64,000 bases of DNA from Pseudobutyrivibrio sp. ACV-2 (GTDB taxonomy: Bacteria; Bacillota; Clostridia; Lachnospirales; Lachnospiraceae), in contig NZ_FNQZ01000004.1 of the NCBI RefSeq assembly GCF_900107545.1, positions 62,001 to 126,000 on the forward strand, in the 5' to 3' direction. Below the pieces are notes generated by a model. The model made no database searches and was not told the DNA's origin. It was given only the letters and a program-made list of their open reading frames with translations. Shown one piece after another: positions 18,069 to 57,938 of the stretch. The translations under genes were made by a program, and so were the position numbers. Each line of letters opens with the position of its first letter. Position 1 is the first letter of the stretch.

Positions 18069-18190
18069 AATCAGCTGCTTAACCTTGGCGAGCGCGAGAA
18101 GGAAGGCTCCATGCCGAGTGAGGAGCTACTGCACCGGAGCGAGAGTATGGAAGGTGGCCTGCGGGAGCACGGAACACTTGGAGGCTGATT
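18069..18190 (+). ncRNA. R1 structured element, copy A (thyA-folA spacer)
   Basis: A 90-nt core (18080-18169) matches the one at 48809-48898 at about 82 positions, including a 40-base identical block around ATGCCGAGTGAGGAGCTACT. The core is enclosed by AATCAGC (18069-18075) and GCTGATT (18184-18190), which can pair. An inner pair TCCAT/ATGGA becomes CCCAT/ATGGG in the other copy, a compensatory change. It ends 18 bases before the folA start. It has no open frame of note. Confidence 0.6.
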
Positions 18191-39377: not shown

Positions 39378-41525
39378 ATGAGATTAAAAATTTATAACTT
39401 TTTAGTAAATAAACATATTGGAATAAGAAAGCGCTATCATGCTTTTCATGACAATTCTACGGGAATAATCAGGATGCTATCGTGGGTTTATCTCTTGTGG
39501 CTTAACTGTGCATACTATTGTTTATTTATGCATTCGCTTGGCAAGGATGATAAAACCGATGTGTATGAGTACAAAAATATTGAGTCTAGAATATCAGAGA
39601 TGGCGCATTTTAAAAAAGAATATCCGGATGTTTGTGTAGACAGATTTGTTGAAAAACTTCTAGGTTTTGATGTTGTTTCTTTTGATATTTTTGATACTTT
39701 GATTTTTAGACCTTTTTCTGAACCTGCGGATTTATTTTACCTAATTGGTTGTAAACTAGATTTCTTAAATTTTAAGGATTTAAGAGCACGTGCCGAGTTT
39801 GAAGCTAGATTAATCAGAGCAGAGAGTCAAAAAATCAAAAACAAAAAAAAGAAGCAAAGTGTAAAAAAACAACAAATTGACTACGAGGTAGACATTAACG
39901 ACATCTGGAGTCGTATGTCAGATATCACTGGAATTGATGCGGTAAAAGGCAAGGCTATTGAAGAAGAATTGGAGTATGAGCTTTGCTATGCTAATCCATT
40001 TATGTTACAAGTTTTCAAAGAACTTCAGGCTAGAGGTAAGCGTATAGTTATCACATCTGATATGTATCTGACAAAGGATTTTCTTGTAAAGATGCTCAAA
40101 AAAAATGGATATGATGGATATGAGTACATTTTTGTTTCAAATGAATATCATAAGAGCAAGAGTGATGGTCGACTTTATGATGTAGTAAAAAACAAAATGG
40201 GGAATGAGCTTAGCTATATTCACGTTGGAGATAATGTACATAGCGATATTAAGATGGCTGAAAAACATGGCTTTAATACATTGTATTATCCTAACGTAAA
40301 TAGAGCTGCTCTTCTGTACAGAACCTACGACATGTCTCCAATTATTGGAGGAGCATATAGAGGTGTAGTTAATAATCGCATATATTCTGGAGTAGATAAA
40401 AAAACGACTTCAATGGAATACGAGTATGGTTATATTTACGGTGGTCTGTTTTCCATAGGATATTGTGCGTATATTCATGAATATGCAAGACTTCATAATA
40501 TAGATAAGATTTTGTTTCTCTCTAGGGATGGAGATACATTAAAGCAAGTGTATGAAATTATGTATCCTGAGGAAACCCTTTCCGATAAAATCCAGTATGT
40601 ATATTGGTCTAGAAAGGCGGCAACTATTCTTACGTATGATTTGGATAAAAATGACTATTTTAGACGTTTCCTATATCACAAGATCAATCAAAAATATACA
40701 ATTTTGCAGATTTTATCATCAATGGAATTAGAGAAATTAGCTGATAAAATTGAAGGTTATTCAATTGTAGACAAAGATGTTCCGCTGATAGGTAATGAAG
40801 GACGTAAAATAAAACTTCATTTGAGTGATGAACTTACAGATAAAAATGTTGAAATTCTTCGAGTATATATTGAGGAAAACTTTGGTAGAATTAATGAGCA
40901 ATATCTGCAAAGAGAAAAGGCAGCAAAGCTCTACTATAAAAATGTACTTGATGGTGTTACAAAAGCGTTGCTTGTTGATATTGGTTGGGCTGGAAGTGGT
41001 GCTATTGCAATTCGTAGATTGTGTCATGAAAAGTGGGATATTCCATGTGAAATCATTGGTATGATTGCTGGAACAAACACAGTTCACAATGTAGAGCCAT
41101 ATCAAACAGAAACGTTCCTACAGTCAGGTGTGATGAATGCCTATCTCTATTCACAGAGTTTCAACCGCGATTTGCTAAAAAAACATGACCCTGCAAAAGA
41201 CTATAATGTTTTTTGGGAGTTGATTCTAGGTTCTCCTACAAGGCAATTCAAAGGTTTTAAGTCCTTAGATAATGGTGCTGTAGGTTATGATTTTGGTGAT
41301 TACGATGATAATTTAGAGGGAATTAAAGAAACACAGCAAGGAATTTTGGATTTTTGTAAGGATTATATTACTGCTTTCGGTTCGCCTGAGAATGGTCAGC
41401 ACAAGCTGCTATATAGAATTAGCGGAAGAGATGCTTATGCTCCAATATTAGCTGCTTCTGGTAATAAAGAAAAATATCTTAAGGCTATCAGAGATAAATT
41501 TAAATTAGAGCCAAATGTAGTATAA
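39378..41525 (+). CDS. HAD-domain polysaccharide-locus protein (COG5610-like)
   Basis: The 715-residue protein has an N-terminal helix-rich or partly membrane-touching lead (about 25-55), then a HAD phosphatase domain with SFDIFDTLIFRPF (nucleophile and DxDxT type motif) near residue 105 and VITSDMYL as the second motif. GDNVHSDIKMAEKHG is the third. The C-terminal 350 residues match the single-domain paralogue at 27745 (FLSRDGDTLKQVYE and VDIGWAGSG). The substrate is unknown; a sugar-phosphate or polymer role fits the place. Confidence 0.78.
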   Translation: MRLKIYNFLVNKHIGIRKRYHAFHDNSTGIIRMLSWVYLLWLNCAYYCLFMHSLGKDDKTDVYEYKNIESRISEMAHFKKEYPDVCVDRFVEKLLGFDVVSFDIFDTLIFRPFSEPADLFYLIGCKLDFLNFKDLRARAEFEARLIRAESQKIKNKKKKQSVKKQQIDYEVDINDIWSRMSDITGIDAVKGKAIEEELEYELCYANPFMLQVFKELQARGKRIVITSDMYLTKDFLVKMLKKNGYDGYEYIFVSNEYHKSKSDGRLYDVVKNKMGNELSYIHVGDNVHSDIKMAEKHGFNTLYYPNVNRAALLYRTYDMSPIIGGAYRGVVNNRIYSGVDKKTTSMEYEYGYIYGGLFSIGYCAYIHEYARLHNIDKILFLSRDGDTLKQVYEIMYPEETLSDKIQYVYWSRKAATILTYDLDKNDYFRRFLYHKINQKYTILQILSSMELEKLADKIEGYSIVDKDVPLIGNEGRKIKLHLSDELTDKNVEILRVYIEENFGRINEQYLQREKAAKLYYKNVLDGVTKALLVDIGWAGSGAIAIRRLCHEKWDIPCEIIGMIAGTNTVHNVEPYQTETFLQSGVMNAYLYSQSFNRDLLKKHDPAKDYNVFWELILGSPTRQFKGFKSLDNGAVGYDFGDYDDNLEGIKETQQGILDFCKDYITAFGSPENGQHKLLYRISGRDAYAPILAASGNKEKYLKAIRDKFKLEPNVV

Positions 41526-41608
41526 GGTATAAATAAGACACAGATTGAAATAAATATTTAGATCGATTTTTTAGTTTAAAAATACTAAAAAAATGATATA
41601 TTTTTTGA

Positions 41609-41657
41609 GTTCAACAGTTTTAAACGTAAAACACGTTTAAAACTGTTGAACTTTTTT
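41609..41657 (+). terminator. Strong hairpin before the ATPase-TOPRIM pair
   Basis: GTTCAACAGTTTTAAACGT and ACGTTTAAAACTGTTGAAC form a perfect 19-pair stem around AAAAC, followed by six Ts. The ATPase gene must be transcribed from a promoter after or around this point, so the pair is its own unit. Confidence 0.8.
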
Positions 41658-41696: not shown

Positions 41697-42848
41697 ATGG
41701 TAAAACTATTGAAAATATCTGCAGAAGGTTTGATGCTTTTTAAGGATAAAGTAGATATAGATTTCTATACTGAGCAAAGAGTATTAGCGGATAATAATGA
41801 AATGGTGTTTAATCCATTTGGAAAGATATATACAAATAATGTATTGTCTATAGTAGGTATTAATGCCTCTGGAAAAACGTCGTTATTAAAGCTAATTTCA
41901 TTTATCACTAGGCTTGTAAATGGAGCGCCTATAAATAATATAGATAGCAGGGATATACTCGTAGGAAGTGATAATGTTTTTATAGAGTCTATATTTTATA
42001 ACGATCAGGTAGGAGTTTGTAAGCTTGTTACCAATATAAGAAAAGAAGTTATAAATGAGCTTGAGTCAAGATATATTATTGCAGAAGAAAAATTATTCAT
42101 TAAGAATACTAAAAAAATAAAAACAAGAAGAGATATTCTTGAATTCACAAAGAATGATTTATATAAAGAGCGTGACAATTCAGCAGAATTTCTTCAAGAT
42201 GATGCAAGTATTGCTATATCATTAAGTAAACTTTCTAAAATATATGTGGATGATTTGATTAGTACAACCAACCGAAATTATTTGCAGTTGATTGGCGATT
42301 TTCCACACGAATTAATAGCTTTTTTGGATCCTAGTATTGAAAAAATAGAATTTAATAAGAAAAACGGAGAGGCAGCTTTAAAGTTTTACGGAAAAGAAAC
42401 TATTAAAGTTTCAAATCCTATGTTGTTTGAAAACTACTTGTCATCAGGCACGATAAAAGGAATTAATGTCTTTATTAGTGCGATGGTTGTATTTTCTGAG
42501 GGTGGATATTTATTAGTAGATGAGTTGGAAAATCATTTTAATCGTGAAATAGTAGCAACATTAATAAGATTTTTTATGAATAAAAGGGTTAATCCTAATG
42601 GTGGAACGTTAATATTTTCTACTCACTATTCTGAATTACTTGATGAGTTTGATCGAAATGATAGTATCTTTATTGTTAGAAATAGAGGTGGTATTAGTAT
42701 TCAAAAATTAAGTAATATTCTTAAGAGAAATGATATTAAAAAGAGTGAGGCATTTAAGAGTGATTTCTTGGATGGGACAGTTCCTTCTTATGAGTCATAT
42801 ATAAATTTAAAACGTGCAATTATCAACAACCCTATTTCGGAGGGATAA
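41697..42848 (+). CDS. AAA/ABC-type ATPase, RloA/AbiL-like
   Basis: This 383-residue protein has VGINASGKTS as Walker A (about 53-62), YLSSGT as ABC signature (about 247-252), LLVDELENHFN as Walker B (272-282) and FSTHY as the H-switch. The pattern matches AAA_15/AAA_21 ATPases of OLD/RloA/AbiL-type systems, in which an ATPase partners a nuclease. The central insertion (about 100-190) is charged and helical. The stop is 3 bp before the partner. Codon use is very A/T-rich, in keeping with transfer. Confidence 0.8.
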   Translation: MVKLLKISAEGLMLFKDKVDIDFYTEQRVLADNNEMVFNPFGKIYTNNVLSIVGINASGKTSLLKLISFITRLVNGAPINNIDSRDILVGSDNVFIESIFYNDQVGVCKLVTNIRKEVINELESRYIIAEEKLFIKNTKKIKTRRDILEFTKNDLYKERDNSAEFLQDDASIAISLSKLSKIYVDDLISTTNRNYLQLIGDFPHELIAFLDPSIEKIEFNKKNGEAALKFYGKETIKVSNPMLFENYLSSGTIKGINVFISAMVVFSEGGYLLVDELENHFNREIVATLIRFFMNKRVNPNGGTLIFSTHYSELLDEFDRNDSIFIVRNRGGISIQKLSNILKRNDIKKSEAFKSDFLDGTVPSYESYINLKRAIINNPISEG

Positions 42849-47713: not shown

Positions 47714-47862
47714 TTAAGTGAGCGTCAGCTCAATATATTCAAATAGCTTGTAGCTATCAAGGCTAGTATTTCTTAAGCGAAGCTTTCCATTGCTGAGCGT
47801 AGAAATATTAGACTTGTTAGCGTAACAAGCGAGAGATATATTTTTGTCTGACGCGGACTAAA
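47714..47862 (+). ncRNA. R2 structured element, copy C (thl-hbd spacer)
   Basis: It has ends TTAAGTGAGC and GCGGACTAAA shared with copy D (57839-57938), and an apical block TCTTAAGCGAAGC..TTCCA..GCTGAGCGTAGA shared too. The stem between differs in sequence but pairs in both: here GCTTGT/ACAAGC, in D GCCTGT/ACAGGC. This copy is longer by an extra pairing segment (GCGTCAG with CTGACGC). It stands where crt is in many butyrate clusters and ends 20 bases before the hbd start. Confidence 0.6.
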
Positions 47863-48794: not shown

Positions 48795-48922
48795 GAATCC
48801 ATTGTTCATAACCTTGGCAAGCGCGAGCAAGAGGGCCCCATGCCGAGTGAGGAGCTACTGCACCGGAGCGAGAGTATGGGAGATGGCTTGCGGGAGCATG
48901 ATGAATTTCGGACAATGGATTC
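48795..48922 (+). ncRNA. R1 structured element, copy B (hbd-bcd spacer)
   Basis: Outer arms GAATCCATTGTTC (48795-48807) and GGACAATGGATTC (48910-48922) pair over 13 bp. The 90-nt core between (48809-48898) is about 82/90 identical to copy A. The outer arms share no sequence with copy A but pair in both. It ends 26 bases before the bcd start, with AAGGAG after it. Confidence 0.65.
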
Positions 48923-57801: not shown

Positions 57802-57838
57802 ATCTTTGTAACGTGAATTATTGAACAGTTTAGAGCCC

Positions 57839-57938
57839 TTAAGTGAGCCTGTAGTTCACAATCTGTGTATCTCTTAAGCGAAGCATTCCAAGCTGAGCGT
57901 AGAGATACACAGATTGTGAACGTAACAGGCGGACTAAA
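57839..57938 (+). ncRNA. R2 structured element, copy D (mrp-ppi spacer)
   Basis: This 100-nt hairpin has GTTCACAATCTGTGTATCTC pairing perfectly with GAGATACACAGATTGTGAAC, an outer GCCTGT/ACAGGC pair, and the conserved apical block TCTTAAGCGAAGC..TTCCA..GCTGAGCGTAGA. The ends TTAAGTGAGC and GCGGACTAAA match copy C. No U-run follows, so it is not a standard terminator. Confidence 0.65.

Follow-up and report, generated by a model that had tools for sequence, protein, structure and literature searches.

R2, a MITE-like hairpin repeat of Pseudobutyrivibrio with a strand-specific RNA signature

We found that R2, represented by two copies (C and D) in a 64,000-nt stretch of the genome of the rumen bacterium Pseudobutyrivibrio sp. 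ACV-2 (the window), forms a hairpin whose length hardly varies and whose pairs covary strongly; its loop regions are conserved and its tips exchangeable. Both its orientation and its wobble pairs are biased towards the sense strand, the same gap is filled or empty among related species, and elements occur nested. The explanation we favour, with confidence somewhat better than evenly balanced, is that R2 is a mobile element of about 100 nt, MITE-like and restricted to Pseudobutyrivibrio, that works as an RNA read together with the neighbouring genes.

A hairpin family with a nearly fixed core

The original prediction had proposed, from copies C and D, a family of hairpins with conserved tip and ends and compensated stems. 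Inspection of the sequence bore this out: coordinates, ends and tip blocks of both copies are as claimed (Table 1), as is the compensated exchange of GCUUGU/ACAAGC in C for GCCUGU/ACAGGC in D. The folds of D (-55 kcal/mol, z -11.25) and C (-55.9 kcal/mol, z -5.99) were not matched by any of 200 shuffles. Within the window, the R2 tip pattern occurs twice against 0.00 expected, and a covariance model matched C, D and an echo of D, nothing else. Searching the window against Rfam at the gathering threshold returned only two tRNAs and no match for R2, and a permissive scan of D gave 22 sub-threshold matches, mostly to miRNA, and no family.

Table 1. Features of copies C and D and of two R1-type hairpins in the window
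Feature	Position	Strand	Remarks
R2 copy D, whole element	57839..57938	+	113.3 bits, model match 57837-57938; foot loop type TGAGC/GCGGA, tip class I
Copy D neighbours			In gap between Mrp/NUBPL-type ATPase gene and cyclophilin gene (Pfam)
D foot helix 5' side, GCCUGU	57847..57852	+	Fold, 33-copy alignment
D conserved GUAG	57851..57854	+	A57853 unpaired, facing GUA (57922-57924)
D main helix 5' arm, 21 nt	57854..57874	+	Fold
D tip	57875..57900	+	UAA/GU internal loop, GC pairs, facing GA/GA, 3-bp helix, AUUCCAA loop
D main helix 3' arm	57901..57921	+	Fold
D foot helix 3' side, ACAGGC	57925..57930	+	Fold
R2 copy C, composite	47714..47862	+	Inner R2 element within outer frame (AAGTGAGC/GCGGACTAA)
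Copy C neighbours			In gap between thiolase (thl) gene and 3-hydroxyacyl-CoA dehydrogenase (hbd) gene (Pfam)
C inner R2 element	47736..47838	+	94.9 bits; foot type ATAGC/GCGAG, tip class I
C outer frame helix 5' arm, two blocks	47722..47739	+	Fold
C outer frame helix 3' arm, two blocks and one single pair	47835..47854	+	Fold
R1-type hairpin, thymidylate synthase/dihydrofolate reductase gap	18085..18175 (approximate limits)	+	Genes by Pfam
R1-type hairpin, hbd/acyl-CoA dehydrogenase gap	48810..48910 (approximate limits)	+	

A genome-wide covariance-model search, which had been proposed as a check, carried the family far beyond these two copies. The model, built from 33 class I copies and giving rough E-values, returned at least 65 matches in the 3.66-Mb genome, among them some class II copies and one or more opposite-strand echoes. 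Since 150 of about 1,650 candidates were scored in the single-genome searches (this genome and that of G177), copy numbers are lower bounds. The tip pattern matched 10 places genome-wide versus 0 for a reversed control, and a looser foot pattern (GTAG, four letters, CAA ... TTG, four letters, CG) matched 62 versus 11; nine of the 62 lacked a stem and were dropped by eye before fetching. All 53 retained copies fold to -20 kcal/mol or lower; 33 are class I (alignment A3), 15 are class II (alignment A4) and five carry other tips and belong to neither alignment. The constancy of GUAG, CAA/UUG and CG in A3 and A4 is built in, because these letters are part of the foot search pattern; all 10 copies found via the tip alone, however, carry GUAG, CAA, UUG and CG at fixed places, making the foot letters independent of that later pattern.

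The constant part of R2 consists of a foot helix (typically GCNNGU/ACNNGC), an unpaired A opposite GUA, a helix and a tip, and conserved letters occur in its unpaired loops. From the GUAG/CGUAAC foot to the tip, the helix arm measures 21 or 22 nt in 32 of the 33 class I copies; in G177, the aligned stretch is 22 or 23 nt long on the 5' side (91 of 94 copies) and 21 or 22 nt on the 3' side (93 of 94). Class I tips comprise a UAA/GU loop, GC pairs, facing GA/GA, three pairs and a short loop, whereas class II tips sit on a longer arm of 29-31 nt and read GAGUAUAGC-GNNA-GCGAU in most of the 15 copies. R2 is, in other words, at least two tip classes on a common foot. Foot loops fall into the types TGAGC/GCGGA, ATAGC/GCGAG and others, and each main type carries both class I and class II tips in this genome, as if foot types and tip classes were combined modules.

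Long copies are nested elements

Copy C is longer than D because its inner R2 element is enclosed by a second arm pair, with a TGAGC/GCGGAC foot; its extra length is that of one element sitting inside another. The roughly 50 extra bases noted in C at the outset are indeed present and paired, but they form this enclosing arm pair and not a longer stem. Nor does variable length, originally given as a property of the hairpin, describe it well: core length is nearly fixed within a tip class, and long copies such as C are nested.

Reading by eye showed a second foot around the first in other copies too, for example L014 and L038. Flanks of ATAGC-type copies form a more stable duplex with their own partner than with the flanks of other copies (mean -14.8 versus -11.4 kcal/mol), and 20% of 30 copies lie beyond the 5th percentile of mismatched pairs. 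TGAGC-type copies show a smaller mean excess (-11.5 versus -9.9 kcal/mol, 18% of 56 copies beyond the 5th percentile) and the medians (-9.55 versus -9.7) show no difference in that direction. From these figures, nesting is a minority state.

Pairing is conserved and strand-specific

Across the 33-copy alignment, 96.2% of cells are paired, so copies without the pairing, which had been named as evidence against a family, are not what the search found. Both sides changed in 24 of 32 pairs, and the covariation score was 0.624, compared with 0.181 after shuffling and at most 0.088 with slid partners. A 94-copy alignment from G177 scored 0.619 versus 0.184 shuffled, although it was fitted to the model and leans towards it. 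(Of the 126 matches in G177, 90 were positioned relative to genes; the 94 rows come from a search of 83 of these 90 loci, which the remaining ones overlap.)

If the palindrome were maintained as DNA, G-U and A-C mispairs would be expected in roughly equal numbers. We counted 42 G-U, 4 A-C and 36 other mispairs in the window's genome, and 84 G-U, 10 A-C and 158 other in G177, where most of the 'other' class stems from two misaligned pairs and the count leans towards G-U because the model scores pairing. Mutation bias on the transcribed strand might add to the G-U excess but would hardly explain a tenfold one. Antisense copies, too few to interpret, show no reversal in G177 (13 copies, 6 G-U versus 2 A-C), and the three antisense class I copies of the window's genome hold 4 G-U and 0 A-C.

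Orientation likewise follows the genes. Among the 53 copies of the window's genome, 42 sense and 4 antisense copies lie in gaps between codirectional genes (p = 5e-9), 4 are in convergent and 2 in divergent gaps, and 1 is unplaced; the 90 copies placed in G177 comprise 59 sense and 13 antisense (p = 4e-8), 17 convergent, 0 divergent and 1 unplaced. In the window's genome, GUAG lies a median of 71 nt beyond the stop codon and the next sense start a median of 59 nt beyond the foot, gene starts being approximate as open reading frames were called mechanically. Among the 17 convergent copies in G177, only 6 are on the strand whose local GC skew is positive; replication is therefore not what sets the direction of R2, and a replication-directed orientation is unsupported. 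The excess of G-U over A-C, combined with the mostly sense orientation after a stop codon, indicates that the sense RNA is what selection sees.

Pairing was also compared among orthologous copies. For the C site, 24 of 30 loci were searched, the others being fragments or weak paralogues. Nine orthologous copies there have changed compensatorily on both sides in 10 of 32 pairs, and 7 of 288 cells are broken or gapped. Among seven D-site copies that have an outer frame in common, the corresponding figure is 3 of 31 pairs, with broken intermediates in one genome that may be chimeric; the D-site copy of G175 looks like a mix of two allele types, which may be an assembly effect. The comparison suggests that pairing matters where a copy sits, although replacement of whole hairpins (by conversion or reinsertion) could explain part of the compensation.

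R2 was found in a single genus

R2 was detected at E <= 1e-4 in 28 of 29 Pseudobutyrivibrio genomes, with 1 to 124 matches each in that search, and a search of G177 by itself gave at least 126; the sole genome without a match is an 83% complete draft. An exact-pattern scan of named genomes returned ten matching stretches, all from Pseudobutyrivibrio. Two model searches across the Lachnospiraceae, scoring the best 26 or 10 candidates per genome and thus liable to miss weak relatives elsewhere, found matches in 1 of 150 and 2 of 397 genomes, all of this genus, and none in the 149 and 395 genomes of other genera. The exact tip pattern was absent from viral contigs, and copy D as a query matched no plasmid or phage record. 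At the search sensitivities used, R2 is restricted to Pseudobutyrivibrio. Titles and abstract openings of the literature on repeats, hairpins and noncoding RNA in Pseudobutyrivibrio, Butyrivibrio and Lachnospiraceae did not mention the family, and a literature search on repeats and mRNA stability likewise returned nothing on it.

Occupancy and ends suggest mobility

We assigned site states at the C and D gaps by eye. The D gap, compared across 29 genomes, holds a sense R2 copy in 17 (7 of them within a further outer frame) and none in 9, while the remaining three genomes hold a sense plus an antisense copy, an antisense copy only and a bare foot only. The C gap, readable in 23 genomes, holds R2 in 10 and an R1-type hairpin in 8 (one cut by a contig end) and is empty in 5. 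On a quick genus tree from three proteins, with 13 of 26 inner branches open, this amounts to at least seven occupancy changes at D and at least nine at C, some between close species. The bare foot is in the mrp-ppi gap of G151 (L139) and reads GATGAGCTAGTA-TGTG-TAACTAGCGGA, at a place that holds the complete element in other genomes; its inner hairpin was lost or the foot was never filled.

Two copies about 10 kb apart in the window's genome are 97% alike over 109 nt, and the likeness stops at the foot. R2 type 1 ends read TA-RATGAGC ... GCGGAC-TA, with a short and imperfect inverted repeat. Among the 41 of 147 copies that carry both type 1 motifs (TGAGC/CGGA-type), 35 have TA at the left end, 31 at the right end and 29 at both, and conservation drops outside. 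Comparing filled and empty sites at two gaps, we observed a 3-nt overlap (TTA) that fits a target duplication in two of five cases (G169 versus G154 at D; G150 versus G169 at thyA-folA) and no overlap in three (G169 versus G176 and G170 versus G176 at D; G150 versus G154 at thyA-folA). Because of the near-identical pair at two loci, the filled and empty gaps and the TA ends, R2 units seem to move around the genome. R2 is, moreover, short (about 100 nt), multi-copy (at least 65 matches in this genome and at least 126 in G177), non-coding and dispersed, as is a MITE.

TA ends are reminiscent of IS630-type elements. The corresponding transposase (DDE_3) was found in none of the 29 genus genomes, while 3 of 14 control genomes were positive, and IS630 is disfavoured as the mobiliser on this count. 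The RAYT/Y1 family is also disfavoured as mobiliser: Y1_Tnp was found in only 10 of 29 genomes and not in 19, among them G172 (54 matches), G152 (69), G160 (77) and G171 (86). The window's genome contains a Y1 transposase stretch with three stops (G000:C37:88330-88590, L190).

R1-type and R2 hairpins occupy the same gaps

A kinship between R2 and R1, a second hairpin type of the window, had been suggested from a resemblance of tip motifs. Both types do replace each other at the same gaps between species, the thl-hbd gap of copy C among them, but shared motif letters are no proof of common descent. The thyA-folA gap holds R2 in G150, an R1-type hairpin in G170 and 12-15 nt only in G169, G154 and G176. 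In the hbd-acyl-CoA dehydrogenase gap, R2 is present in G157, G171, G159, G156 and G177; G150 has a different hairpin there, and G170, G169 and G154 have none. These exchanges support the view that the two types prefer the same insertion sites or serve a common use; they need not share an ancestor. Our R1 search pattern was too strict, finding one copy and missing both of those in the window.

The hairpin of G150 in the hbd-acyl-CoA dehydrogenase gap is of a third type, with TTTGCGAAGCAAA-like palindromes (L297:18570-18671; G150:C1 about 98570-98671). In G160 and G168 (L167 and L172), a repeat of about 125 nt with long paired arms lies 3' of the thiolase gene, and the last thiolase codons differ in the alignment of G160.

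A candidate role in mRNA processing or decay

The likeliest role of R2, judged from its fold and placement, would be control of mRNA processing or decay between cistrons, because a rigid helix lies between conserved loops, mostly codirectionally and behind stop codons, and because R2 seldom lies in divergent gaps (0 of 90 and 2 of 53 copies), has no terminator tail at C or D and shows no gene theme. Pfam scans of 40 of 44 downstream proteins (4 of the 40 without a match), together with the six genes around C and D, revealed no common theme. An enzyme acting in trans would insert the unit at TA or TTA, and insertion past a stop codon would make it part of a polycistronic mRNA. There, a rigid helix of two turns, lying between the foot and tip loops, may present a substrate or a barrier for RNases, uncoupling the decay of upstream and downstream cistrons by protecting a 3' end, by RNase III-type cutting or by both; copies that keep their pairing would be retained. 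Cutting or stabilising of mRNA, both raised in the original prediction, fits R2 as a candidate role. Several observations count against this explanation: 13 of 72 codirectional copies in G177 are antisense, these too with more G-U than A-C (6 to 2), three of five filled/empty comparisons lack an overlap, and no partner transposase emerged from the two families tested.

The main rival to an mRNA role is a purely selfish mobile element whose fold serves its own movement only, via an RNA intermediate or recognition of the folded strand, with the sense bias reflecting merely insertion or survival downstream of genes. We regard this as possible, if clearly the less probable of the two. High turnover among related species, nesting, the diversity of the neighbours and the near-identical dispersed pair all speak for it, as does the wobble bias that antisense copies, in small numbers, hold on the element strand. 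The double compensated changes at orthologous C-site copies and the few A-C mispairs among the 94 copies of G177, in turn, suggest that pairing is kept after insertion.

A broader reading, which we consider rather unlikely, would make R2 part of a bacterial SINE-like suite of R1, R2 and at least one more family that share post-stop slots, spread strand-specifically without an IS630-type transposase (possibly RNA-guided or RNA-copied), nest into composites and are kept as insulators of cistron decay. If true, operons would possess exchangeable plug-in controls of mRNA decay.

A cis-regulatory RNA (attenuator, riboswitch or protein-binding leader) controlling a regulon would account for the conserved unpaired loop letters and for the position of C and D close upstream of ribosome sites. 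The downstream genes, however, lack any theme in Pfam, which strongly disfavours a regulon; 17 of 90 copies in G177 lie in convergent gaps and have no downstream sense gene, and presence varies between related species, making this reading very improbable.

We judge it hardly probable at all that R2 is a DNA-level palindrome (a cruciform, a protein site or a REP/RAYT-like single-strand DNA substrate) without an RNA role. TA at the termini would suit such an element. REP/BIME elements with RAYT carry GTAG near a hairpin and occur in many intergenic copies, as R2 does, and its GUAG near the foot resembles the GTAG of REP; in R2, however, GTAG lies within a helix and not before it, and the Y1 family was not found in the 19 genomes noted above. 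G-U far above A-C, and an orientation that follows genes, are unexpected for a strand-neutral palindrome.

Least probable of all are ordinary intrinsic terminators or chance hairpins: R2 does follow stop codons, but, as originally predicted, C and D are not ordinary terminators (a G+C stem followed by a U-run is absent and no + strand terminator was called around either), which also disfavours the termination listed among the suggested mRNA roles, and 42 of 53 copies have a codirectional gene on both sides, the next sense start following the foot at the median distance given above.

Relation to known repeats

R2 as a kind is already known, namely a small interspersed MITE-like repeat; new are its strand-specific RNA signature, the nearly fixed-length helix with exchangeable tips, the nesting and the slots shared with R1. 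In PMC3446304 and PMC6542083, the bcr1-bcr18 repeats are described as 100-400 bp long and restricted to the Bacillus cereus group, with up to 130 copies of bcr1; they lie in UTRs and operon gaps, bcr1-3 are termed MITE-like, bcr10 and bcr18 are predicted RNA elements and mobility is tied to TTTAT repeats. A correlation of bcr3 with longer mRNA half-life is reported in PMC3446304. R2 resembles these repeats in being group-restricted, multi-copy, MITE-like and present in operon gaps. It differs from them, as far as those descriptions go, in its TA ends in place of TTTAT, its nearly fixed-length hairpin, its exchangeable tips and its nesting.

The BOX, RUP and SPRITE repeats of Streptococcus, according to PMC3049150, are short interspersed repeats, sometimes inserted into one another, that are transcribed within operons and have a predicted RNA fold, BOX being modular. 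BOX grows by extra internal modules, as described there, whereas R2 has alternative tips on a common foot and helix and, set against BOX, shows strong covariation and a strand-specific wobble bias. Correia/NEMIS, ERIC and YPAL elements, as described in PMC2229807 and PMC10969869, are short, have TA termini in several cases and give long hairpin RNAs co-transcribed with their neighbours, with RNase III (NEMIS) and RNase E (ERIC) reported to act on the mRNA. R2 shares with them the short length, the TA ends and a hairpin predicted to be read with its neighbours; as differences, no IS630-type transposase was found in its genus (0 of 29 genomes) and its target overlap appears in only two of five comparisons.

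Small interspersed repeats of bacteria are commonly regarded as genomic parasites with an incidental fold. In R2, the strand of the selected fold is legible from the sequence, with G-U over A-C eight- to tenfold in two genomes and an orientation set gene-wise. Whether such a repeat serves its host via mRNA decay is therefore testable within one genus, by comparing related species with the same operon gap filled or empty; among these gaps is the thl-hbd gap of the butyrate pathway.

Two other arrangements were seen. Positions 41545-41652 of the window hold two adjacent inverted repeats (31 nt at 74% and 20 nt at 100%), where the R2 model has no match; the open frame before them ends at 41525, and the next one starts at 41697. 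At two loci of G177 (L192 and L200; G177:C1 331332-331526 and 654644-654847), pairs of opposite-strand elements meet 5' to 5' and overlap by about 5-10 nt.
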